Positions 1,912-20,087 of a stretch of 21,979 bases of DNA are shown piece by piece. Source of the stretch: a virus. The stretch spans positions 1 to 21,979 of the IMG/VR virus record IMGVR_UViG_3300045994_000323; one strand, given 5' to 3'. Under the pieces are notes generated by a model. That model was not told the origin of the DNA. It was given only the letters and a program-made list of their open reading frames with translations, and searched no databases. The translations under genes and the position numbers were made by a program. How positions within the stretch are numbered: the stretch's first letter is position 1; the number at the start of each line of letters is the position of its first letter.

Positions 1912-2720
1912 ATAAATCGTATTATATATTACCAGTATACAATAAAGAAACCTTGATATTAGATGTACTTAATGGTATAAAATCTTCACACAGTAATAAA
2001 ATACATCCACCAATTATAATTTGTATTCTGGATGGGTGTATTGATAATACAGAAAATATAATTTTAGAATTTAAAGATACATTAGAACATCCTGAACATC
2101 TTCATATGTTGTATATGGATGATGTTCATGAAATAGCATGTCTGAATAGAGGACTTGGGTATATCAAAACATATTTGAATCCAGAGCCAAATGATTTAAT
2201 ATTTATGGTTCAGGATGATGTTATTTTGATGGAGCCTGATATTGATATTTTATTTAATGATCTGTTTTCTAATCACGATAATCTTGGATATATTAGTATG
2301 AGATTTGGTTGTAGTGTTAATATATTTAATGGTACTATGGTTGAATCTAATTTTATTGAATCTGAGTTTGGACATTGGGATCAATTAAATTGGGGTTTTC
2401 ATACATCAATTAAACACTTAACTTTCAATCAATCAGAAATTGCAGTTAGAAGTCCTACATGTACTCAATGGAAGCGGTATGATGAAGTTGGATTCTTTGA
2501 TGTTAATCTAATGCCTTGTGGGTATGATTGTCACGAATTCAGTATTAGAATGAACAAGTTAGGTTATATTAATGGTGTTTTTATTGTGAAATATACAAGT
2601 CTAGTTGATTGGGGAACTATGCGTTCTGGGAAGGAATCATTACATAATGATAATCTAGACTATAATGGAAATAAAAGATATATAATTGAGAAACATAAAG
2701 ATTATTTTTTAAAAGGGTGA
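1908..2720 (+). CDS. Family 2-like glycosyltransferase (GT-A fold)
   Basis: A 270-residue protein. The N-terminus YILPVYNKE and the segment LDGCIDNT (residues 41-48) match the nucleotide-binding strands of GT2 enzymes (PVYN...DGS.D.T). FMVQDDVILMEP (residues 99-110) carries the acidic metal-binding site, and CGYDCHEFSIR near residues 205-215 sits where GT2 proteins have their GED..LxLR-type motif. No transmembrane segments are visible. It overlaps the upstream epimerase by ATGA and is followed two bases later by the fucose-synthase-like gene. Transfer of an activated sugar onto a glycan is likely; donor and acceptor are unknown. Confidence 0.8.
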   Translation: MNKSYYILPVYNKETLILDVLNGIKSSHSNKIHPPIIICILDGCIDNTENIILEFKDTLEHPEHLHMLYMDDVHEIACLNRGLGYIKTYLNPEPNDLIFMVQDDVILMEPDIDILFNDLFSNHDNLGYISMRFGCSVNIFNGTMVESNFIESEFGHWDQLNWGFHTSIKHLTFNQSEIAVRSPTCTQWKRYDEVGFFDVNLMPCGYDCHEFSIRMNKLGYINGVFIVKYTSLVDWGTMRSGKESLHNDNLDYNGNKRYIIEKHKDYFLKG

Positions 2721-2722
2721 TT

Positions 2723-4879
2723 ATGAATAAAAATGACAAGATCTATGTAGCTGGTCATACTGGATTAGTTGGTTCAGCTATTGTTAGAGAATTAAGGTTG
2801 CAGGGCTATGATAATCTAATTTTAAAAACTAGAACAGAATTAGATTTAACTAATCAAGCATTAGTTAATAAGTTTTTTGGAGACGAGAAACCAGAATATG
2901 TTTTTCTTGCAGCCGCAAAGGTTGGTGGGATTAATTTTAATAAATTATATGCTGCCGATTTTATCACTGAAAATTTACAAATACAAACTAATATTATAAA
3001 AAGTTCATTTGATCATAAAGTTACAAAATTATTATTCTTAGGCTCTGCTTGTTTTACTGCAGGTCAAGTTGTATTTACTAAATCTGGATATAAGAATATA
3101 GAAGATGTTAATATAGGTGATTATATTTTAACCCATACTAATACATTTAAAGAAGTGTATAATGTATATTCAAAAAATTCAAATAAATTAATTAAGATTA
3201 AAAGTGTTGGAAATGAAGTTATTGAATGTACACCCGATCATGAATTTTTGACATATAGTGGTATTTGGGTTGAAGCAAAAGATCTTACTAGAGAAGATTA
3301 TATATGCATACCAAAACATTATAATACATCTAATATTAAAGAGATTGCTATATTTAAAAATTCAGATGATATTTCTAAATATATACAATGTAAAAATTTT
3401 TTAGATAAAACTATATTACCATCAAATCCTGAAGAACATAGATGGAACAAAGGTAGTCTTCCTAGAATGATGAAATTAAAAAATGTTAATTTTAATTCTG
3501 AAGAACCGTATTCAATTTCATATCTTATTGGTGTATTTTTAGCAGAGGGTTGGGTAGTATATAAAAACACTAATAAGAGAGGTAGTAGACATTCTTTATC
3601 GTTTTCTCCCGGATTTGATCCTTTATTTATTAATAATATAGAAACCGCATTAAATACTGTATGTGATTCGTATATAAAATATAATAAGAGGACTTCTGTA
3701 TATTTAGGTGTCAATTCGAAAATATTATGTGAATTTTTTCTAGATTTTTATTCAGATAAAGATATAAAGAGAGCACATACAAAAATTATACCAGAATATA
3801 TTTTTAATTTATCAAAAAGTTCTTTGATAGAAATAATAAAAGGGTATTGGGATGGTGATGGTTGTATTCATAAGAGAAAAAATCGTATTGAACAATATAC
3901 CTGTATTGCAGCAAGTACATCAAAAGATTTAATATATGGACTAAGACGAATTTTATTTCAATTAGGCATTTTCTCATCTATTAATTTTATAAAAAAAGCA
4001 AATACTGCTATAATAGAAGGTAGAACTGTAAATCAAAAAAATCAATATTCTTTAAGGATAAATGGGAAATATGCCATAAAATTTTTAAATGATATATATG
4101 ATTATAATATAGTTAATGATAAAACTAATAGTAAAATATTAGAGGATAAAAATTATTTCTTTTCTAAAATTGTTTCGACTGAAGAAATTATTGAATCTAA
4201 GACTGTTTATGATTTAACTATTTTAGATGATCATTCATATACAGTTAATGATGTTATAGTACATAATTGTATTTATCCAAAAATCACAGAACAGCCTATT
4301 AAAGAAGAATATTTAATGACTTCTAAATTAGAAGAAACTAATGATGGTTATGCAATAGCTAAAATTGCTGGTGCGTTAATGTGTCAAAAATACAAGCAGC
4401 AATATGGGTTTAATTGTATAAGTTTAATGCCAACTAATTTATATGGAATTGGTGATAGATTTAATATAGAACATGGTCATGTTATACCTGGACTCATTAA
4501 TAAGTTTTTATTAGCAAAAGAATCTGGCGATTCTAATGTGTCGTGTTGGGGTGATGGATCTCCAACTAGAGAATTTTTATATTCTGATGATCTTGCAGAT
4601 GCTTGTATTTTTTTAATGAATACTTATGATTCAGAAGAAATTTTAAATATAGGTATTGATAATGAAATTACTATAAAAGATTTAGCTGAAAAAATAAAAG
4701 AAAAAATTGGATTTAGTGGTGAAATTCTTTGGGATACAACAAAACCAAATGGAACCCCTCGCAGAAAAGTTTGTAATGACAAATTATATTCATTGGGGTG
4801 GAGACCTAAATATAATTTAGATGAGGGGTTAGATCTAACTATAAATTGGTATAAGAACAATATAGGATTTACAAAATGA
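2723..4879 (+). CDS. fcl: GDP-L-fucose synthase family enzyme (possibly GDP-colitose synthase), interrupted by an intein
   Basis: A precursor of 718 residues; removing the 406-residue intein leaves about 312, the normal length of GDP-L-fucose synthase. The ATG at 2723 is preferred over the GTG at 2717 because AGGG (2714-2717) is correctly spaced for it. The spliced enzyme has GHTGLVG (residues 11-17, NADPH site), AAAKVGGI, S108, C110, Y137-x-x-x-K141 and H180. These align one residue offset from E. coli Fcl S107, C109, Y136, K140 and H179, which are the catalytic and epimerisation residues. It acts on GDP-4-keto-6-deoxy-mannose-type substrates with 3,5-epimerase/4-reductase chemistry. ColC, which makes GDP-colitose, belongs to the same family, and the adjacent ColD-like gene makes that alternative real. 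No GDP-mannose dehydratase gene is in the window. Confidence 0.93.
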   Translation: MNKNDKIYVAGHTGLVGSAIVRELRLQGYDNLILKTRTELDLTNQALVNKFFGDEKPEYVFLAAAKVGGINFNKLYAADFITENLQIQTNIIKSSFDHKVTKLLFLGSACFTAGQVVFTKSGYKNIEDVNIGDYILTHTNTFKEVYNVYSKNSNKLIKIKSVGNEVIECTPDHEFLTYSGIWVEAKDLTREDYICIPKHYNTSNIKEIAIFKNSDDISKYIQCKNFLDKTILPSNPEEHRWNKGSLPRMMKLKNVNFNSEEPYSISYLIGVFLAEGWVVYKNTNKRGSRHSLSFSPGFDPLFINNIETALNTVCDSYIKYNKRTSVYLGVNSKILCEFFLDFYSDKDIKRAHTKIIPEYIFNLSKSSLIEIIKGYWDGDGCIHKRKNRIEQYTCIAASTSKDLIYGLRRILFQLGIFSSINFIKKANTAIIEGRTVNQKNQYSLRINGKYAIKFLNDIYDYNIVNDKTNSKILEDKNYFFSKIVSTEEIIESKTVYDLTILDDHSYTVNDVIVHNCIYPKITEQPIKEEYLMTSKLEETNDGYAIAKIAGALMCQKYKQQYGFNCISLMPTNLYGIGDRFNIEHGHVIPGLINKFLLAKESGDSNVSCWGDGSPTREFLYSDDLADACIFLMNTYDSEEILNIGIDNEITIKDLAEKIKEKIGFSGEILWDTTKPNGTPRRKVCNDKLYSLGWRPKYNLDEGLDLTINWYKNNIGFTK
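3050..4267 (+). mobile_element. Intein with LAGLIDADG-type homing endonuclease in the Fcl-family gene
   Basis: A 406-residue in-frame insertion. It begins with Cys (CFTAGQVVFT, block A) and ends V-I-V-H-N directly before the extein Cys (block G, canonical His-Asn with Cys+1). Block B is visible as E-C-T-P-D-H (TxxH), and block F as VYDLTILDDHSYTVND. Two dodecapeptide motifs mark a LAGLIDADG-type endonuclease: LIGVFLAEG and GYWDGDG, each with an acidic residue in the expected place, so the endonuclease may be active. The flanking host protein reads LGSA|CIYPK, which rejoins into the conserved Fcl motif. All splicing residues are present, so self-splicing is expected. Confidence 0.95.
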
Positions 4880-6040: not shown

Positions 6041-6838
6041 TTGAATAGTATTAGAGAAAAAATGAAAAAATTAAATGTTGTATTTGTTGGTCCTGTAAGA
6101 AATTGTAGTAAATTTCTCGATAAAGTCTTTTTAAATATCGAACGTATTGGAGGATTATTTAAATCATATTCTTGTGTGTTTGTAGAAAGTGATTCTGTTG
6201 ATAATAGTTTAGATATTTTAAATGAATATAGCTTAACAAATAAAAATATCCATGTAATAACTTTAGGAAATCTTGAACCCAGAATACAATCTAGAACTCA
6301 ACGAATTGGTGTAGCAAGAAATGTTGGTATTCAATATTGTGAGGATAATAATTTACTAGATAGCCATGAATACTACATTCAATTATGTGTTGATGATGTA
6401 AACGCAGAACCTATTTATTTATCTGGTATTGAGAGTTGTTTTTCTTATGATTTAAATTCTTGGGATGGTATGACGGCAAATCAAAATACCTATTATGATT
6501 TGTGGACTCTTAGGAAAGATGGTTGGTTGAATTATGATTGTTGGTATGAATTAGCAACCACACATCAAAATTATCCATCATATGAAGATGCTAAAGAATT
6601 TTTAATAAATTCTAAATTCATAAAAGTACCAAAGGATTCTGAGTTAATTGAAGTTGATTCTGCTCATGGTGGGTTATCAATTTATAAATCATCTATCGCA
6701 AGGGGTTGTAGATATAAAGGTTATAATGAAATCACTAATTTTGAAGAATCTGATATTTTAGAATTTTGCCGAAATATAAAAGCTAAAAACGGAAAAATAT
6801 TCATAAATCCAAAATTACTTAATATGTATAATAACTAA
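6041..6838 (+). CDS. Glycosyltransferase-like protein resembling the CAP59/GT69 family
   Basis: A 265-residue protein. The TTG at 6041 is taken as start because GGAG (6030-6033) lies 7 bases upstream; an ATG at 6062 would still keep the domain but has a poor ribosome site. The pattern is VVFVGPVRNC, then VESDSxDNS (48-56), then RTQRIGVARNVG (85-96) and CVDDVN (116-121) with acidic residues in a DxD-like place. The R-T-x-R-I-x-x-A-R-N stretch followed by an acidic pair resembles the CAP59-type mannosyltransferase family (GT69), best known from fungi but present in phage and bacterial genomes. The assignment to GT69 is by memory of motif order and is moderate. It is the last gene of the glycan block. 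Confidence 0.75.
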   Translation: MNSIREKMKKLNVVFVGPVRNCSKFLDKVFLNIERIGGLFKSYSCVFVESDSVDNSLDILNEYSLTNKNIHVITLGNLEPRIQSRTQRIGVARNVGIQYCEDNNLLDSHEYYIQLCVDDVNAEPIYLSGIESCFSYDLNSWDGMTANQNTYYDLWTLRKDGWLNYDCWYELATTHQNYPSYEDAKEFLINSKFIKVPKDSELIEVDSAHGGLSIYKSSIARGCRYKGYNEITNFEESDILEFCRNIKAKNGKIFINPKLLNMYNN

Positions 6839-6840
6839 AA

Positions 6841-6900
6841 TTGAGAACATATAAATACTTAATATAACCATTTCATATTAGGTATTAGGTATGTTCTCAA
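6841..6900 (+). promoter_or_regulatory. Inverted repeat that can bury the start codon of the 6891 gene
   Basis: TTGAGAACATA (6841-6851) and TATGTTCTCAA (6890-6900) are perfect 11-bp complements separated by 38 bases. The right arm contains the ATG at 6891-6893 and the late promoter box lies at and just inside the left arm. In an RNA reading through from upstream the stem would close the start codon; an RNA starting at the late promoter would lack the left arm. Confidence 0.7.
6850..6857 (+). promoter_or_regulatory. T4-type late promoter box TATAAATA
   Basis: An exact match to the T4 late promoter octamer (recognised by the gp55 sigma factor), followed by C. It lies in the 52-base gap before the 6891 gene, 41 bases from its start codon. 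Transcription would start roughly 10 bases downstream, near 6866-6868. It is overlapped by the left arm of an inverted repeat. Confidence 0.75.
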
Positions 6901-7112
6901 GTTCAACAATATCACAATCTATGATAGCTGCAGTTACCGATATTTTAAATGAAGATCGAGAATATGTAGCTATTCATAAACCATCAGGAAAAGTTTCTTT
7001 TGTTGGTAAAACTAAACAAAGCAGAGATGGTTTCATTGCAAAATATGGTTCTGTTCATGAACCATCAAAAGTAGCCAATGGTTCTAAAAAAGTCGGAGAC
7101 ACTTGGATTTAA
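6891..7112 (+). CDS. Small conserved phage protein, late-expressed, function unknown
   Basis: A 73-residue protein behind a late promoter. The sequence VAIHKPSGKVSFVGKTKQSRDG suggests a small beta-rich unit, and similar short proteins occur among virion-assembly genes of T4-like marine phages. No catalytic motif, signal peptide or membrane segment is seen. AGG at 6880-6882 is the best ribosome site, 8 bases from the ATG. The start codon sits in the right arm of an 11-bp inverted repeat, so translation is probably restricted to transcripts starting at the late promoter. A structural or assembly role is inferred only from expression class and position. Confidence 0.75.
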   Translation: MFSSSTISQSMIAAVTDILNEDREYVAIHKPSGKVSFVGKTKQSRDGFIAKYGSVHEPSKVANGSKKVGDTWI

Positions 7113-7884: not shown

Positions 7885-8269
7885 TATAATCGATCCAATA
7901 ACGGCACATTTTAAATTTACACAAGGTATTCATAGGTTTGGTAAAGATACAAATCCAAATACTAGAAAAGCACATGAGAAAGACCAGAGAGAAAAGGCTA
8001 AATTAACGGGTGCTGATACAACCAAAGATGTTGGATCTGCAGAAATTACAGCACAACAACATACAAACCAATTTATAGATAGTTTAAATAAAGTTAAAAA
8101 TTCAGTAATAGCTAAACCATTTAAACCAAAAACTATAAAACCTATTGCTATTCCACCAGTTGTTCATACAACACCTGTAGATCATTCTCATACACCAAAT
8201 AATCAACCGCATAATACTAGTCCGTTTTTTAATAATTATGCAAACAAATTTAAACACCCAAAATTTTAA
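7874..8269 (+). CDS. Hypothetical late protein, Pro/His/Asn-rich tail
   Basis: A 131-residue protein starting inside the last codons of the P-loop gene (11-base overlap). The first 65 residues are charged and probably helical (KAHEKDQREKAKL), while residues 80-131 are rich in Pro, Thr, His, Asn and Lys and look disordered. No known domain is recognised. The overlap with the upstream gene and the well-placed ribosome site for the next gene at its 3' end argue that it is truly translated. Function unknown; possibly a small virion or scaffold component. Confidence 0.68.
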   Translation: MASNIIDPITAHFKFTQGIHRFGKDTNPNTRKAHEKDQREKAKLTGADTTKDVGSAEITAQQHTNQFIDSLNKVKNSVIAKPFKPKTIKPIAIPPVVHTTPVDHSHTPNNQPHNTSPFFNNYANKFKHPKF

Positions 8270-8279
8270 GGATAATTTT

Positions 8280-9029
8280 ATGGATTTGTCTATTATAAAA
8301 CGATTATATAATGAAAAACTATCAACCAAATCTGCGACAAAACCAAAAGATGATAATGATGCTTCTACTATATTACATTATAGAACTAAATCTGGACGTA
8401 TAATTAGAAAGGTTTCTGAAGAAATTGTTGAAGAAGAAATTGTTGAAGAAGAATCTTTAGATGAAGTTTCTAACTATGATGCTGTAGTTACCTATTATAG
8501 AGATCAATTACATTTAGATCCATATAAATTAAAAGGTGAAGTTGGTAAACAACTTAGAGATAAAATTAAAATGTCTCCTGCTTTTCGTGCTTGGATGAAA
8601 ATTAATAAATATGAATCTGTTGATATAATTTCTGATGATCAATTAGATGAAGTTGTTGGTGCTGGTTTGAATACAAAATCTATACACAAACATTTAATTT
8701 CTAATGGTTGGAAATCTACTGGACCATCTGGTAGCCATAATAACTATTCACATCCAGAATCCTCAACTATTATATCTGTACCAAGACATGCTAAGGATAT
8801 AAATAGAATAACTGCTATGAAGATATTAAAACAATCTACTAATCTTAATAAATCTTGTGCTGCAGCTAATGAAAATGTTTCTGTACTTACTATGAATATT
8901 TTAGAAAAAATAAAAGAAGTAAAACAAAAATCAAGTAAACCATCTGAAGAAATTACTTTTTTTGGTACTGGTCAAGAAAAGAAATCTAAAAAACCTACAG
9001 CTACAGTTGATTATGGAACTGAGCAATAG
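8280..9029 (+). CDS. Phage protein with embedded HicA-like (dsRNA-binding fold) domain
   Basis: A 249-residue protein started at ATG 8280, where AAGGA (8268-8272) is 7 bases upstream; an upstream ATG at 8238 lies inside the previous gene and has no such site. Residues about 45-60 hold a tandem acidic repeat (E-E-I-V-E-E-E-I-V). A central helical part follows (YYRDQLHLDPYKLKGEVGKQLRDKI). Residues about 134-186 match the HicA toxin pattern: a helix, then NGWK, G-S-H-N-N-Y with the conserved His (H153), a strand ending in V-P-R-H, and a closing helix. HicA proteins are normally stand-alone mRNA interferases of about 60-80 residues paired with HicB. Here the domain is fused inside a late phage protein and no HicB partner is adjacent. 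The domain call is from pattern only. Confidence 0.75.
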   Translation: MDLSIIKRLYNEKLSTKSATKPKDDNDASTILHYRTKSGRIIRKVSEEIVEEEIVEEESLDEVSNYDAVVTYYRDQLHLDPYKLKGEVGKQLRDKIKMSPAFRAWMKINKYESVDIISDDQLDEVVGAGLNTKSIHKHLISNGWKSTGPSGSHNNYSHPESSTIISVPRHAKDINRITAMKILKQSTNLNKSCAAANENVSVLTMNILEKIKEVKQKSSKPSEEITFFGTGQEKKSKKPTATVDYGTEQ

Positions 9030-9034
9030 TTTTA

Positions 9035-9042
9035 TATAAATA
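9035..9042 (+). promoter_or_regulatory. T4-type late promoter box TATAAATA
   Basis: An exact TATAAATA followed by C in the 59-base gap between 9029 and 9089, 54 bases upstream of the next ATG. An alternating T/A run (about 9047-9062) lies just downstream of the expected start point and may help melting. Confidence 0.72.
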
Positions 9043-10173: not shown

Positions 10174-10827
10174 ATGATAAATGAAGATGGTGGTATACCA
10201 ACTAATAATGTAAGTGGTGGATCTATTGCTGGAACTACACCAGAAACTCTTGGTGTTTCAGTTAAAAACATGAAAGCTAGGAAAATCCCTAAAATGTTAA
10301 CTAGAACATTACCTTCTTGTGGACAAAAACAAAAATCATTTGCAAAGGAATCAGCTATGGTAAATAAAACATATTCTTCATTTATCATTGGATTAGATGA
10401 AGCAGCGGCAAAACCAAAACCAAAACCGGAAGCAGCACCTGCAGTTTCTAATAACAAAGATGATATTTCAAACAATATTGCATCAGAACTATTTGCTAGA
10501 TGTAGAGCAACAGCAACAACAACACATTTTGCACATCTAAGTACTGATTCATATTCAGAACACAAAGCTCTAGACACCTTCTATACAGACATTATAGACG
10601 AGATTGATGATTTTTGTGAAGCTTATATAGGTTTATATGGTAAATTTATTACACTACCGCCTATAGTTCCACAGATGCAAGAGGGAGAACCTGCAATTGA
10701 AGAATTGAGAGATTGGGTTTTACAAAACAGATCATTAATTACAGATGATACATCATTACAAAATGCTATAGATGATATAGTTACTCTTTGTAATAGTACA
10801 ATATATAAATTACAAAAGCTGAGTTAA
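10174..10827 (+). CDS. Two-part phage protein with helical C-terminal domain (DUF5856-like)
   Basis: A 217-residue protein. The N-terminal part (GGIPTNNVSGGSIAG) is a Gly/Asn-rich segment of a type common in T4-like phage structural proteins. Residues about 75-92 form a Lys/Pro/Ala linker (AAAKPKPKPEAAPA). The C-terminal part from about residue 100 is helical, with E-L-F-A-R-C-R-A-T-A-T-T-T-H-F-A-H and a Y-S-E-H-K-A-L-D-T-F-Y segment, resembling DUF5856, a four-helix type domain seen in phages. His and acidic residues recur within the helices, but no metal site can be proven. It starts one base after the previous stop and ends four bases before the lysozyme start. Confidence 0.75.
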   Translation: MINEDGGIPTNNVSGGSIAGTTPETLGVSVKNMKARKIPKMLTRTLPSCGQKQKSFAKESAMVNKTYSSFIIGLDEAAAKPKPKPEAAPAVSNNKDDISNNIASELFARCRATATTTHFAHLSTDSYSEHKALDTFYTDIIDEIDDFCEAYIGLYGKFITLPPIVPQMQEGEPAIEELRDWVLQNRSLITDDTSLQNAIDDIVTLCNSTIYKLQKLS

Positions 10828-10831
10828 TATT

Positions 10832-11275
10832 ATGAACATTTCAGATAATGGATTGTCTTTAATAGTTAAATCTGAAGGTTTAAAACTTTCGGCATATAAA
10901 TGTTCTGCTGGTGTTGTTACAATAGGTATCGGTACTACTAAAATAGATGGAAAATCTATTAAAATGGGTGATACTTGTACAACAGAACAAGCGTATGAAT
11001 ATTTAGAAATTTTTATTAAAGATGAAATATATCCCACTATAGCTAAATATGTTTCTGTACAATTAACACAAAATCAATTTGATGCTTTGTGTAGTTTAAT
11101 ATATAATATTGGAACTCCACAATTTATCACATCTACTCTATTAAAAATGCTAAATATTAATAATTTTGTTGGTGCTGCTGACCAATTTTTGCGTTGGAAT
11201 AAAGCTAGAGGCAAAGTTGATAAAGGTTTAGTTAATAGAAGAGCTACAGAACGGCAACTTTTTATAACGGAGTAA
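10832..11275 (+). CDS. Endolysin, GH24 lysozyme
   Basis: A 147-residue muramidase that cleaves the glycan strand of peptidoglycan at lysis. The catalytic pattern is E15-x8-C24-x5-T30, the E-8-D/C-5-T arrangement of phage GH24 lysozymes with Cys where T4 lysozyme has Asp20. GIGTT follows, and later FDALCSLIYNIG and WNKARGK...GLVNRRATER are the standard family blocks. The N-terminus has no signal peptide or signal-anchor, so export should need a holin. The next two genes, one with a C-terminal membrane segment, may complete a lysis cassette. Length and block order are normal for the family. Confidence 0.95.
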   Translation: MNISDNGLSLIVKSEGLKLSAYKCSAGVVTIGIGTTKIDGKSIKMGDTCTTEQAYEYLEIFIKDEIYPTIAKYVSVQLTQNQFDALCSLIYNIGTPQFITSTLLKMLNINNFVGAADQFLRWNKARGKVDKGLVNRRATERQLFITE

Positions 11276-11990: not shown

Positions 11991-12018
11991 TTTACATTTA
12001 GAAATTTTATGATATAAT
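11991..12018 (+). promoter_or_regulatory. Sigma70-type early promoter with extended -10
   Basis: TTTACA (11991-11996), 16-base spacer, then TATAAT (12013-12018) preceded by TG at 12010-12011 (extended -10). Transcription should begin near 12025, 28 bases before the primase ATG. This is the only strong host-type promoter I see in the window, and it opens the replication/nucleotide block. Confidence 0.78.
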
Positions 12019-12052
12019 AGGAGTTTGATTAAACTTTATCAGGCTCCTAGTT

Positions 12053-13075
12053 ATGTCAATTTGGATAGACAGAAAATATCTTTTATTATTATCCCCTAAA
12101 TTAGAATTATTCAAAAGAAAATCTGATAATTTATATAACTTCAGATGCCCATATTGTAATGATTCTCAGAAAATCAAAACTAAAACTCGCGGTTATGTTT
12201 ATTCTAGCAAGAACAATTATTTTTTTACTTGTCACAATTGCTCTAAGAATACAACACTTAGATCTTTAATAGATCTATTAGATCCATTCCTAGCTAAAGA
12301 ATATTCCCTAGAAAATTTTCAAGAGAATTCTTTTCATATACCTATAAAATCTACAGAATCTTTATATAAAGATCTGCAGAAAATTAACTCTAATACTATT
12401 GTTAAAAAATGCGTATTAGATCTACCAACAATTAAATCTTTATCAAAAACTCATATAGCTAAAGAATATCTTTTAAATAGAAAAATCCCAGAATCTAAAT
12501 TTGATGATTTATATTATGCTGAAGATTTTAGAGCTTTTGTGTCATCAGTATCTGATAAAATATTACCATCGACATCAGCAAGAATAGTAATCCCGTTTAT
12601 ATCTAAAAATGGTACTCTAAAAGCAATACAAGGTAGAGCTATAGATAAAAACGATCCTATGCGATACATTACTATTAAAATAAATGAAGCTTCTGATAAA
12701 TTGTATGGTGTAGATAAAATTGATATATCGAAACCAATTTTTGTATTAGAAGGAAGTTTTGATTCTATGTTTTTACAAAATTCAATAGCAACATCAGATT
12801 CAAATCTAAGTGCTGCTCAACAACTATATTCTAAAGATAAATTAATATTGGTAAGCGATAACGAACCAAGAAATCTTGCAATTGTTAATAATATAGAAAA
12901 GTTTATAAATGCTGGATTTACTGTTTGCCTATTTCCTAGATTTATTAAAGGAAAGGATATAAATGAAATGATATTAAATGGCTTGACATCTGAGGAATTG
13001 ACTGATATAATAATGACTAATTCATTTATTGGATTGAGAGCAAAATTAGAATTTTTACACTGGAGAAAATTATGA
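12053..13075 (+). CDS. 61: DNA primase, T4 gp61-like
   Basis: A 340-residue protein. An N-terminal zinc ribbon has C32-P-Y-C35 and C60-H-N-C63. A linker helix region with a YLLNRKIPESKFDDLYY pattern is typical of T4 gp61-type primases. The C-terminal Toprim domain shows VLEGSFD (E233), then LVSDNEPRN, then GKDINEM, supplying the acidic metal-binding residues. It makes short RNA primers for lagging-strand synthesis, working with a gp41-type helicase that is not in the window. Length equals T4 gp61 (about 340). It is the first gene after the early promoter and its stop overlaps the next ATG (ATGA). Confidence 0.92.
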   Translation: MSIWIDRKYLLLLSPKLELFKRKSDNLYNFRCPYCNDSQKIKTKTRGYVYSSKNNYFFTCHNCSKNTTLRSLIDLLDPFLAKEYSLENFQENSFHIPIKSTESLYKDLQKINSNTIVKKCVLDLPTIKSLSKTHIAKEYLLNRKIPESKFDDLYYAEDFRAFVSSVSDKILPSTSARIVIPFISKNGTLKAIQGRAIDKNDPMRYITIKINEASDKLYGVDKIDISKPIFVLEGSFDSMFLQNSIATSDSNLSAAQQLYSKDKLILVSDNEPRNLAIVNNIEKFINAGFTVCLFPRFIKGKDINEMILNGLTSEELTDIIMTNSFIGLRAKLEFLHWRKL

Positions 13076-13236: not shown

Positions 13237-13357
13237 ATTCTCTTATATGGGCATAGAATGCTTAAGGGTTGATGGTATTTGGTTTGAATATATAAATTAT
13301 GAATATATACTATCAGAACAATCAATTAAATTAGAACAAATGTATAAAGGTAAATAA
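13226..13357 (+). CDS. Small phage protein (43 aa), function unknown
   Basis: ATG 13226 lies inside the end of the previous ORF (11-base overlap), and TAA (13355-13357) shares its last base with the ThyX start. The product is aromatic-rich (WFEYINYEYIL) with no recognised motif. The tight tiling between two genes and absence of other coding in the gap support it; function unknown. Confidence 0.55.
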   Translation: MSLKFSYMGIECLRVDGIWFEYINYEYILSEQSIKLEQMYKGK

Positions 13358-15057
13358 TGAAAATACAAATTTTAGATCATGGTTATTGCGAATTTATTGA
13401 ATCCTGGGGTTCAGATGAACGTATTATTGAAGCTGCCAGAATGTCAACTGATAAAGGCTTTAATGGTTGGGGTACAGAAGAAAATCCTGGTGATGAAAAA
13501 CTATTAGCCTATTTATGGAATAATCATCATTGTTATGATGAACAAAGTGAAGTTTTAACCTCAAATGGATTTGTTCCTTGGAATTTGATTACAAAAGAGG
13601 ATAAACTTGGTGGGTGGGATGATAATATAAACTCTTTAGTTTATGAAACCCCTTATTCTTTAATTAAACAAGAATATGATGGTGAAATGTATCGAGTTAA
13701 TCATGGAGGGGTTGATTTATTAGTAACCCCGAACCATAAAATGTTAGTAAAAACTATGGATTATTTTAGTGAAACCAAAACTCAACATTGGTCAAATAAT
13801 TGGAGTTTAATTGAATCCTCGAAATTAGGAAATCGTTCTATGATACGATTTAGAAAGCATTCTGAATTTAAAATAAGCCCAGAAATAAATTTAAATTTGT
13901 GGTTTCCAAAACACGATGATAGAAGTTCTTTGTTAAAATTAATAGGATTTTTCATAGGTGATGGTCATGCAGAAAAACCAAATATTAATGGGAAATCGTC
14001 AAATAAAATAATATTTCATTTAAAGAAAAAAAGAAAAATATCATGGTTAACTGATATTTGTAATAAACTTAATTGGGAATTGGGTATATTAGCTAATGAT
14101 AGTTATACTGTTACTGCTAAAGGAATAACTGATATTTTTAGAAATTTATTTTACGATAAAAACTCAGAAAAACAAATCCCAGAATTTCTATTGAAAACGA
14201 ACAGTGTCGATGCAAACTTTATTTTAGATGGGTTTAAAAATTCTGATGGTAGTGTAAAACGAAGCACTTGGGAATATTGTACAACATCAAAACAGGTGGC
14301 TGATGGGTTTCAATTATTGGTATTACATTCTGGAGGTTCTTGTCATATAAGATGTGATGATAATTATTTATATAGAATTGGTGTTCTTTCACGTATGCTT
14401 GAGCCTGTCATTAACCAAGGAACACAAAATACCTCACTTGAACAATATAGAGGGTATGTTTACTGCGCCTACACAAGAACAGGAATTTTAGTAATAAGAA
14501 GAAATGGTAAAATTGTACTATCTGGGAATTCTACTCCATTTGAAATGGCTGGTATGATTCTAGAAATTAAAGCCCCTATCATGGTTTTTCGTGAATGGCA
14601 TCGTCATAGGACTCAGGGATACAATGAAATGTCTGCTAGATATGTCCCATTGCCAGATGAAAATTATGTACCAACAATTGAACGACTACTGACTGGTGCA
14701 AATACAGCAACTACTAATAAACAAGCACAAAGTTCTAATCAATTAGAATTAACTGAACAATCTGCAATGGAATGGTTGGGTGTATTAGATGAATCATATA
14801 AACAAGCGCAATATTGCTATGAATATGGATTAAGTTTAGGTATTCCTAAAGAATTAGCTAGACTTCCTGTTCCTGTAGGTAGATATAGCAGAATGCGAGT
14901 TACTTGTAATCTTAGGAATTGGTTAGCATTTCTTACATTAAGACAAGATAGTAAAGCTCAATATGAAATTAGAGTTTATGCTGATCAAGTTTGTAAACTA
15001 ATCGAAGAACATTTTCCAAGAACCGCACAACTTTTTATTCAATCGCAGGTAAAGTAA
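13357..15057 (+). CDS. thyX: Flavin-dependent thymidylate synthase ThyX, interrupted by an intein
   Basis: A 566-residue precursor; without the 333-residue intein it is 233 residues, normal for ThyX. It converts dUMP to dTMP using FAD, NADPH and methylene-tetrahydrofolate. In spliced numbering the H58-S-T-P-F-E segment is the flavin-site motif (T. maritima H53...TPFE), and RHRTQGYNEMSAR (83-95) is the ThyX signature RHRxxxxNExSxR with S93 and R95. C-terminal blocks with RLPVPVGRYSRM and NWLAFLTLRQDSKAQYEIR are also standard. It starts one base into the previous stop with AAAGG upstream and is followed by MazG-like and ribonucleotide reductase genes, a nucleotide-supply operon. Confidence 0.95.
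   Translation: MKIQILDHGYCEFIESWGSDERIIEAARMSTDKGFNGWGTEENPGDEKLLAYLWNNHHCYDEQSEVLTSNGFVPWNLITKEDKLGGWDDNINSLVYETPYSLIKQEYDGEMYRVNHGGVDLLVTPNHKMLVKTMDYFSETKTQHWSNNWSLIESSKLGNRSMIRFRKHSEFKISPEINLNLWFPKHDDRSSLLKLIGFFIGDGHAEKPNINGKSSNKIIFHLKKKRKISWLTDICNKLNWELGILANDSYTVTAKGITDIFRNLFYDKNSEKQIPEFLLKTNSVDANFILDGFKNSDGSVKRSTWEYCTTSKQVADGFQLLVLHSGGSCHIRCDDNYLYRIGVLSRMLEPVINQGTQNTSLEQYRGYVYCAYTRTGILVIRRNGKIVLSGNSTPFEMAGMILEIKAPIMVFREWHRHRTQGYNEMSARYVPLPDENYVPTIERLLTGANTATTNKQAQSSNQLELTEQSAMEWLGVLDESYKQAQYCYEYGLSLGIPKELARLPVPVGRYSRMRVTCNLRNWLAFLTLRQDSKAQYEIRVYADQVCKLIEEHFPRTAQLFIQSQVK
13531..14529 (+). mobile_element. Intein with LAGLIDADG-type endonuclease in thyX
   Basis: A 333-residue in-frame insertion between H58 and the extein Ser. 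Block A starts CYDEQSEVLTSNGFV, block B is LLVTPNHKMLV (TxxH), and the C-terminal region is VYCAYTRTGILVIRRNGKI ending V-L-S-G-N|S. The penultimate residue is Gly rather than the usual His, and the +1 residue is Ser. Endonuclease blocks are LIGFFIGDG and LDGFKNSDG, each with an acidic residue. The exteins rejoin as HH|STPFEM, restoring the ThyX motif. Confidence 0.93.
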
Positions 15058-17720: not shown

Positions 17721-19745
17721 ATGACTATACTTAATATGAATGTAACCCCAGATAAGCTTTTTTTTGGCGAATCTGGTCATGGTATTTCTAGGTATGATAT
17801 TATTAGATATTCTACTTTAGATAAAATAGATGAAAAAATGAAATCTTTTTATTGGAATCCAAAAGAGATTGATTTAAGTCAAGAAAGAAGATCTTTTTCT
17901 TCGATGACAGATATAGAACAATTTGTATTTACCTCAAATCTAAAAAGACAAATATTATTAGATTCAATACAAGGTAGATCTCCAACATTAGCATTTCTGC
18001 CATATTGCAGCGATCCTATTTTAGAGAATTGTTTAACTACTTGGGCATTTTTTGAGACAATACATTCTCAATCATACACTCATATTATTAGATCTATCTA
18101 TCCAGATCCTAAAATTGTTATTGATGATATGCCTAATATTAAACAAATAACAGATTGTGCTACAGATATAACTAAAGTATATGATGAATTAATTAAAAAT
18201 CCAAATAAAGAGAATTTATATTTAGGATTAATTTCCGCTAATGCTTTAGAGGCTCTTAGATTTTATGTATCTTTTGCTTGCACATTTTCTTTTTTAGAAC
18301 GGGGTTTGGTTGAAGGTAGTGCTAAAATTGTTAAGTTAATTGCTCGTGATGAGAACTGTTTGCATCCAGATACAGAAGTTTTAACTACTTCTGGATGGGT
18401 TAAGATTTTAGACATTAAACTTTCTGATAATATAGCACAGGTAGATCTTGATACCTTTAATATAAGTTTTTCTAATCCAGATAATATTATTAATAAAGCA
18501 TATTCTGGAAATATGGTTCGTATAATACAATCAACTACTGGTAAAATATTGCAACATATCACGGAAGATCATGACATCATATTATCTAGAAGTAATTCTA
18601 ATAATAGATTTTCGTCTATAAAAAAATGTCCAGTAAATAAATCTAAATTTAATGTGTTTAATTATTTGCCAGTTAGTGGTGTAAACTATGGAAACCTTAA
18701 ATTGACCTATATGGAACGTCTAGCTATAGCTATACAAGCAGATGGCTCATTTTCGGATAGATATACTGGTGAAATTTGCGGAACTATTCCAGTAAGAATT
18801 TTTCTTAGTAAATTAAGAAAAATTAAAAATTTAGATTATATATTAAATAATTTACCAGAAATATCTTGGATTAAAAATGAAACGCAGGTACTTGAACCTA
18901 AATTAGCTGGATATACATATACTATAAATTTACCAAAAAATACTTTTATAGATAAAAATTTTTCATGGGTTAATATTGAAAATTTAGAAACTGGTTGGTG
19001 TAGAGAATTTATGGAGGAATTGGTAAAATGGGATGGTCATATACCAAAAGATGCTGATTATTTATACTATTCAAATACTAATTCTATTGCTATTGATAAT
19101 ATTCAAGCCATTTTAGCTTTTACTGGATTTAAACATAGAAGAGGAATACAAATAGACAAAAGAAGTGTAAATTTTAATGATATACATAGAATTTATTGGT
19201 GGGATATTCCTAACATTATAGGTAGAATTCCAACGCAAAATTTAAAAAAAGAATATTATGAATATTCTGGTTTAGTTGGTTGTGTAACTATGCCAAAAGG
19301 TACTATTATTACCCGATATAACAACAATGTTTGTATAACTGGAAATTGTCATTTAGCATTAGTGCAAAATATTTTAAAAATGTTACCTCAAGATGATCCA
19401 GAATTTATGCAAATTATTAATGATAATAAAGATAAAGCTAAAAGTCTTTTTGTATCTGCTGCAGAACAAGAAAAAGAATGGGCTGAATATTTATTTAAAG
19501 ATGGTTCTATGCTAGGTTTGAATTCTAATATTCTATCTAATTATGTAGATCATTTACTAAACAAAAGAATGAGATCTATAGGATTAACTAATGATAGTAA
19601 AATTGATAATCCTATTCCTTGGATAGATAAACACTTATCGTCTAAAAATTCAGCTCCAGCACCACAAGAAGTTGAGATTTCTAGCTATTTAGTTGGGTCT
19701 ATTAAAAATAATATATCAGAATTGGATTTGGGTGGATTATGGTAG
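17721..19745 (+). CDS. nrdB: Ribonucleoside-diphosphate reductase class Ia, small subunit, interrupted by an intein
   Basis: A 674-residue precursor; 344 residues after removal of the 330-residue intein. It is the diiron/tyrosyl-radical subunit partnering NrdA. Visible residues are D81 in LLDSIQGRSP, E112 and H115 in FETIHSQSY, radical Y119, E177 in ANALEALRFY, and E211 and H214, which come together as ARDE-N-C-H only after splicing. The C-terminus ends SELDLGGLW, the acidic/hydrophobic tail that docks on NrdA. It starts 13 bases after nrdA, and its 3' end overlaps the next small gene by 7 bases. Confidence 0.96.
   Translation: MTILNMNVTPDKLFFGESGHGISRYDIIRYSTLDKIDEKMKSFYWNPKEIDLSQERRSFSSMTDIEQFVFTSNLKRQILLDSIQGRSPTLAFLPYCSDPILENCLTTWAFFETIHSQSYTHIIRSIYPDPKIVIDDMPNIKQITDCATDITKVYDELIKNPNKENLYLGLISANALEALRFYVSFACTFSFLERGLVEGSAKIVKLIARDENCLHPDTEVLTTSGWVKILDIKLSDNIAQVDLDTFNISFSNPDNIINKAYSGNMVRIIQSTTGKILQHITEDHDIILSRSNSNNRFSSIKKCPVNKSKFNVFNYLPVSGVNYGNLKLTYMERLAIAIQADGSFSDRYTGEICGTIPVRIFLSKLRKIKNLDYILNNLPEISWIKNETQVLEPKLAGYTYTINLPKNTFIDKNFSWVNIENLETGWCREFMEELVKWDGHIPKDADYLYYSNTNSIAIDNIQAILAFTGFKHRRGIQIDKRSVNFNDIHRIYWWDIPNIIGRIPTQNLKKEYYEYSGLVGCVTMPKGTIITRYNNNVCITGNCHLALVQNILKMLPQDDPEFMQIINDNKDKAKSLFVSAAEQEKEWAEYLFKDGSMLGLNSNILSNYVDHLLNKRMRSIGLTNDSKIDNPIPWIDKHLSSKNSAPAPQEVEISSYLVGSIKNNISELDLGGLW
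18357..19346 (+). mobile_element. Intein with LAGLIDADG-type endonuclease in nrdB
   Basis: A 330-residue in-frame insertion. Block A begins CLHPDTEVLTTSGWV, block B is QHITEDHDIIL (TxxH), and the C-terminal part GCVTMPKGTIITRYNNN ends V-C-I-T-G-N|C (penultimate Gly, Cys+1). Endonuclease blocks are visible as LAIAIQADG and FMEELVKWDG. The exteins rejoin as LIARDEN|CHLAL, restoring the E-x-x-H metal-ligand pair of NrdB. Confidence 0.94.
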
Positions 19746-19960
19746 ATATTATTCCAAATTCTCTTGATTTGTGGAAAATTATAGATAAACAAAAAGAAGA
19801 ATTGCAATTATTAAGATCTGCAATTGCTTGTAGAGATATTCAGTTGGGGATTATCGAGAGATTAATTGATAATCCAGAATATGAAATATCTGGAGTAGAA
19901 TATGATTATGAAACTACTCTAATCAATAAAATACAAAAACTAAATGAAACTCTTAAATAA
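19739..19960 (+). CDS. Small coiled-coil protein downstream of nrdB
   Basis: A 73-residue protein whose ATG lies in the last codons of nrdB (7-base overlap). It is helical, with KQKEELQLLRSAIACRDIQL and LINKIQKLNETL as likely coiled-coil segments and an acidic middle (NPEYEISGVEYDYE). No known domain. Overlap with nrdB suggests translational coupling and a role in the same early block, but function is unknown. Confidence 0.65.
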   Translation: MVDIIPNSLDLWKIIDKQKEELQLLRSAIACRDIQLGIIERLIDNPEYEISGVEYDYETTLINKIQKLNETLK

Positions 19961-20087
19961 AATTTTATTTATATGCTTTTTACCGCTACTAGGATTTGGT
20001 TTCCTAGTAGCTTTTTTAGCCCTAGCTTTAGCATTTAAAGTTGGAGCTTTTATTCAGGAGATATATTTTGCCGCTTCGCGATTATAA
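19944..20087 (+). CDS. Possible small membrane protein (47 aa) overlapping a terminator
   Basis: ATG 19944 lies inside the end of the previous gene and TAA is at 20085-20087. The product is a Lys-containing N-terminus, then about 27 hydrophobic residues (ICFLPLLGFGFLVAFLALAL), then FKVGAFIQEIYF, as in small phage single-pass membrane proteins. Against it: there is no good ribosome site and a perfect intrinsic terminator lies inside it, whose T-rich sequence alone would give hydrophobic codons. Treat as possible only. Confidence 0.42.
   Translation: MKLLNKILFICFLPLLGFGFLVAFLALALAFKVGAFIQEIYFAASRL
19985..20017 (+). terminator. Intrinsic (rho-independent) terminator
   Basis: GCTACTAGGA (19985-19994) and TCCTAGTAGC (20002-20011) form a perfect 10-bp stem with a 7-base loop, followed directly by six T (20012-20017). 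It lies 25 bases after the 19739 gene's stop and so closes the primase-to-nrdB block. It also lies inside the possible 47-residue membrane ORF. Confidence 0.88.

Follow-up and report, generated by a model that had tools for sequence, protein, structure and literature searches.

The hairpin at positions 6841 to 6900 is probably a timing switch of the T4 gene e and I-Tev type, a reading for which we infer promoter activity, transcription start site, run-through transcription, and an effect on translation. According to this model, run-through RNA from the upstream glycan genes would hold both arms of the hairpin and fold into a two-tier structure in which the inner stem conceals the Shine-Dalgarno (SD) sequence and the outer stem conceals the AUG, leaving a small gene of 73 amino acids (6891 to 7112, + strand) silent. 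A gp55-type late RNA polymerase would instead start at the box TATAAATA, midway along the left side of the hairpin; its RNA, missing the outer left arm and the greater part of the inner left arm, would open the SD and permit translation. The promoter sequence itself would double as the anti-Shine-Dalgarno arm.

The window analyzed here is the entire 21,979-base IMG/VR record IMGVR_UViG_3300045994_000323, a fragment of a T4-like phage that carries a T4-type primase, ribonucleotide reductase, and related genes. The closest relatives of its primase are found in Methylophilales phage Melnitz and in cyanophages. In the list of open reading frames (ORFs), the + strand carries all of the main genes, from 284 to beyond 19,900. 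No gene for the gp55 late sigma factor was found on the record, which is a 22-kb fragment; a gp55-like late sigma homologue, 52% identical, is encoded on the next nearest relative contig, G004.

All elements of the switch lie on the + strand. Folding of 6841–6900 gives 12 outer pairs, a small internal loop, and 12 inner pairs, for a total of 24 bp. In the MFE structure, the outer left arm (6841–6852) pairs with 6889–6900, which holds the ATG (6891–6893), and the inner left arm AATACTTAATAT (6854–6865) pairs across a 9-nt loop (6866–6874) with ATATTAGGTATT (6875–6886), which holds the SD AGG (6880–6882), 8 nt 5' of the ATG. The T4-type late promoter box TATAAATA (extended form TATAAATACTTAATATA) occupies 6850–6857 and overlaps the inner left arm, such that the downstream half of the promoter is the anti-Shine-Dalgarno arm. 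At T4 late promoters, transcription begins 6 nt after the box, and the late start is thus expected at 6863. A preliminary description of this DNA had reported a perfect 11-bp inverted repeat with the start codon in its right arm and the promoter box at its left arm. These observations are correct: TTGAGAACATA (6841–6851) and TATGTTCTCAA (6890–6900) are perfect reverse complements, the ATG lies in the latter, and the box overlaps the end of the former. The inner 12-bp stem, which joins the promoter to the SD, had been overlooked.

The 11-bp repeat by itself is only modestly unusual. Perfect repeats of at least 11 bp within 60 nt occur four times in the window compared with 1.4 expected, or 0.2 expected when at least three G/C are included. 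The box is no rarer or commoner than chance in this AT-rich DNA, with 11 copies seen and 11.1 expected. Neither the repeat nor the box alone would convince, but the fold as a whole is far from chance. Its energy is −24.4 kcal/mol compared with −6.95 ± 2.3 kcal/mol for 200 dinucleotide shuffles (z −7.6), none of which was as stable, and it ranks third in stability on the + strand in a 70-nt scan. Two hairpins of greater or equal stability on that strand (−25.0 and −28.2 kcal/mol in 70-nt windows) are at about 12001–12075, just 5' of the primase gene, and at about 19976–20055, inside a small ORF (19944–20087).

The calculated accessibility of the translation start depends on where the RNA begins. 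In run-through RNA, 9.2 kcal/mol is needed to open the SD, compared with 1.1–1.5 for starts at 6860–6870 and 1.8 for the late RNA in the calibration described below; opening the AUG costs 9.4 kcal/mol for any upstream start versus 1.8–2.0 for starts at 6860–6870. For the whole SD–AUG stretch, the cost is about 20 kcal/mol (20.3, falling to 4.5) in run-through RNA versus 4.0–4.7 with a late start. The SD mask is lost once the 5' end of the RNA passes about 6858, and all starts between 6860 and 6870 leave the SD open. In the modeled late RNA, the AUG is still partly paired, with an unpaired probability of 0.12 and an opening cost of 1.9 kcal/mol. The preliminary description had proposed that both RNAs be folded; with the start site assumed, the run-through RNA makes the stem and the late-start RNA cannot. 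It had also proposed a gene e-like logic with the start codon as the hidden element. Fold and accessibility bear out this logic in silico, but the main masked element is the SD, by way of the inner stem, and not the AUG. Similarly, its suggestion that late RNA starts inside the stem holds for the inner stem, as the predicted start at about 6863 is in the portion of the inner left arm next to the loop, but not for the outer one, because this start lies wholly past the outer arm. RNA from this position is without the outer left arm and without most of the inner left arm.

For calibration, several phages were examined at every TATAAATA associated with a gene start and an SD; the cost of opening the SD was calculated with 70 nt of upstream sequence, in the late RNA, and with shuffled upstream sequence. 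Among 20 late gene starts of T4, I-TevII (11.8 versus 0.3 kcal/mol) and e (13.4 versus 4.2 kcal/mol) rank first and second. By the same measure, T4 soc shows little SD masking (1.7 versus 1.4 kcal/mol), and gene 49 is not caught by the TATAAATA filter. The site in the window and its counterpart in a related phage fall in the range of the two top T4 cases, and when the upstream 70 nt were shuffled, the observed masking was reached in 0 of 200 trials for the window and 1 of 200 for the relative. The three other late promoters with gene starts in the window are unmasked, at 0.1–1.1 kcal/mol in both forms, and in Melnitz 1 of 17 starts is strongly masked. Masking therefore is a property of particular genes and not a by-product of AT-rich late promoters.

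The relative comes from a search of viral and genome contigs for homologues of the 73-residue protein, which returned a single independent locus, represented by three near-identical contigs (L003–L005) and encoding a protein that is 68% identical. A further match in the genome contigs, L077, was rejected as a chance motif match; it is part of a 232-residue bacterial ORF that resembles RluA-type pseudouridine synthases by sequence. The protein has no match in Pfam or PHROG, its family is unrecognized, and its AlphaFold model is unusable (pLDDT 52). An Rfam search returned nothing relevant. Another relative, identified through neighboring genes (L009/G004), lacks both the 73-residue gene and a late promoter at that place.

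The comparison with L003–L005 separates the two tiers of the hairpin. The upstream gene in the relative is a different one, another sugar-metabolism gene, and the 60 nt 5' of the box are unrelated between the two phages (19/60 identical). The box itself is identical and sits at the same distance from the gene. From box to ATG, the two phages share 39 of 44 bases; two of the five differences fall in the loop and the others in the spacer between SD and AUG, and the SD lies 8 nt from the ATG in each phage. Neither inner arm differs in the relative; third codon positions are 64% identical. Opening the SD of the relative costs 9.2–9.3 kcal/mol in run-through RNA versus 1.7–1.8 in late RNA, whereas the AUG costs 2.0 versus 1.8 kcal/mol, i.e. 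there is no AUG lock. The outer arm that hides the AUG is absent from L003–L005. Of the pairing that the preliminary description expected to be kept among relatives, the SD-hiding half is thus retained and the AUG-hiding half is not. Because the relative keeps the inner arms and the opening costs without the outer arm, SD masking is, as judged from sequence comparison, the conserved switch, and the AUG lock is lineage-specific. In the collections searched, this is the only independent homologous locus, which provides conservation and no covariation at the site. A second late promoter of the window, TATAAATACTAATATA (9035–9042; SD AGGA, gene MSEW...), is found at the same place in the relative (G003:27935) and is unmasked.

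The switch requires a source of longer RNA, and the expected source is the gene at 6041–6838 on the + strand, the last of a sugar/glycan block. Its product has a weak glycosyltransferase 2 match (Pfam PF00535, E 7e-4) that is below the Pfam cut-off. The stop codon of this gene is 3 nt before the hairpin and 11 nt before the box. The preliminary description saw no terminator after the glycan block, and a terminator scan agrees in finding none between the 6041–6838 gene and 6841. Because the same-strand upstream gene ends so close to the box and no terminator is seen, run-through RNA from the glycan genes into the 6891 gene is plausible from the gene layout. Other features of the neighborhood were recorded. 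Genes at 2717–4879, 13357–15057, and 17721–19745 (sugar epimerase/GDP-fucose synthase-like, ThyX-like, and NrdB-like) contain apparent in-frame inteins, as read from the translations. A HicA toxin-like domain is found within a longer phage protein of 263 residues (8238–9029). At 10174–11275, a protein like T4 rI.-1/MobD.6 (PHROG 858) is encoded directly 5' of an endolysin gene; in T4, rI.-1 adjoins the lysis-inhibition gene rI.

Several other explanations for the hairpin can be considered. It could be an intrinsic terminator or a 3'-end stabilizer of the glycan operon that by chance overlaps the next promoter. The hairpin does start 3 nt past the upstream stop codon, and some promoter-nested hairpins of other phages are followed by 5–8 T and resemble terminators (see below). 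However, neither stem is followed by a T-run, in the window or in the relative, the terminator scan is negative here, and a stabilizer would have no need to enclose the SD and AUG. We consider this explanation unlikely. A DNA operator is another candidate, in which a protein, perhaps the product of the gene itself, binds the palindrome and blocks the promoter. The palindrome is nearly perfect as DNA and overlaps a promoter, and I-TevI is known to bind an operator at its own late promoter and repress it (PMC2988022). Against an operator, the inner stem of both phages includes a G-U wobble, a pair in RNA but a mismatch in a DNA palindrome; moreover, the outer half of the palindrome is not conserved, the SD is located exactly in the paired arm, and the 73-residue protein has no recognized DNA-binding family. 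The operator explanation is therefore distinctly unlikely.

Chance complementarity without function might be expected in an AT-rich window in which the box count equals chance and perfect 11-bp repeats are mildly in excess. The z score of the fold and the result of the shuffled-upstream test (0/200) make this possibility very unlikely, as does the retention of the inner stem in the relative despite a different upstream gene. Finally, a palindrome can be made by two late promoters placed back to back, which is the likely cause at the divergent gene pairs of the survey described below, such as L100, where the pattern occurs on both strands. In the window, the gene before the hairpin runs in the same direction as the 6891 gene, TATAAATA does not occur in CATACCTAATACCTAATATG, the minus-strand reading of the right arm, and there is no minus-strand box near the site, making a bidirectional promoter extremely improbable. 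A timing switch that acts on the RNA thus is the explanation we favor.

We surveyed IMG/VR for other leaders of this kind. A first scan for TATAAATACTTA with TARGTATT gave, after deduplication, 14 distinct matches versus 10 and 7, and few had real gene starts. An SD-anchored pattern (TATAAATACYT, 3–33 nt, AGGTATT, and a nearby ATG) was found in at least 119 stretches, and a control in which the right arm was scrambled and the SD kept (AGGTTAT) was found in 80. Leaders were retained after removal of duplicates if followed by an ORF that spans 50 codons or continues past the contig end. Among the matches listed, the SD is masked yet free in the late RNA in 64 of 82 test leaders, a figure that is partly by construction because the pattern fixes seven complementary positions, compared with 3 of 29 scrambled controls. 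For this reason, positions that the pattern does not fix were examined. The next inner pair is formed in 37 of 49 non-redundant genes among the matches listed (26.4 expected), and the second stem extension pair is Watson-Crick in 32 of 47 of those listed (13.0 expected; 0/2000 permutations). The scrambled controls lie closer to expectation for the stem extension pairs.

The genes behind such leaders, among the matches listed, include T4-type lysozymes, a head-tail adaptor, a baseplate tail-tube cap, head closure and tail fiber genes, a GIY-YIG homing endonuclease, and a RuvC-like resolvase. Ten of the leaders listed are at divergent gene pairs, where the palindrome probably represents two back-to-back late promoters. 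In one such case (L100:1055–1103), a palindromic late promoter with the pattern on both strands lies between divergent head-closure and tail-tube-cap-like genes and is a probable bidirectional late promoter. In 12 of 50 non-redundant genes among the matches listed, 5–8 T follow the stem. In these leaders (L087, L085, L119, L129, L158, L193, and others), the promoter-nested hairpin is followed by a T-run just before the ATG and may be an intrinsic terminator that ends the upstream unit, its 5' arm carrying the late promoter and its 3' arm the SD. The site in the window belongs to neither sub-type. A RuvC-like Holliday-junction resolvase family with a masked or partly masked late leader was observed in L106, L111, and L200, of which L106 matches PHROG 159; this resolvase is likely the functional counterpart of T4 endonuclease VII (gene 49), and its leader parallels the hairpin reported for that T4 gene.

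The survey suggests that masking hairpins of this kind occur more often among T4-like phages than one would expect from the few cases in T4. We lean, with some reserve, toward the view that the arrangement of gene e is an architectural rule widespread in T4-like phages, in which the promoter half AATACYT is co-opted as a built-in anti-Shine-Dalgarno arm for unrelated late genes, among them lysozyme, neck, and tail genes, and is sometimes fused with a terminator T-tract. The site described here would extend a textbook control device of T4 to an uncultured T4-like lineage. It also offers a testable sequence rule, pairing between AATACYT in the promoter and ARGTATT in the SD arm, to identify genes that would be kept off until late infection. 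If the rule is general, run-through RNA over such genes should not be counted as expression in phage transcriptomics. The presence of the same device at a RuvC-like resolvase suggests that selection has acted convergently to prevent early production of damaging late enzymes.

The closest known system is T4 gene e, at which long RNAs give about 100-fold less lysozyme through the switch (PMC3014915). As predicted here, the late promoter of gene e lies in the DNA of the 5' strand of the hairpin, and the SD is hidden in run-through RNA and freed in late RNA. The pairing is also alike, with promoter AATACCTTCT pairing with AGGAGGTATT in gene e and AATACTTAATAT with ATATTAGGTATT here. The differences are that the gene here encodes 73 residues of an unrecognized family, that its SD is weak (AGG compared with AGGAGG in T4), that it has one late promoter and not two, and that its stem is two-tier, with an outer tier that would lock the AUG as well. 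A late promoter combined with an SD-masking hairpin is likewise found at homing endonuclease genes embedded in earlier transcription units (PMC2988022), namely T4 I-TevI, I-TevII, I-TevIII, and segB and Aeh1 mobE, and I-TevII has the largest masking difference among T4 starts by the measure used here. Unlike these, the gene in the window encodes no recognized endonuclease, is not in an intron, and is not clearly inserted. T4 soc and gene 49 are also late genes with an SD or AUG sequestered on longer RNAs (PMC3014915), although soc is barely SD-masked by our measure. Compared with these systems, what would be new at this site, based on the modeled fold, is a two-tier form of the gene e-type hairpin that also locks the start codon.
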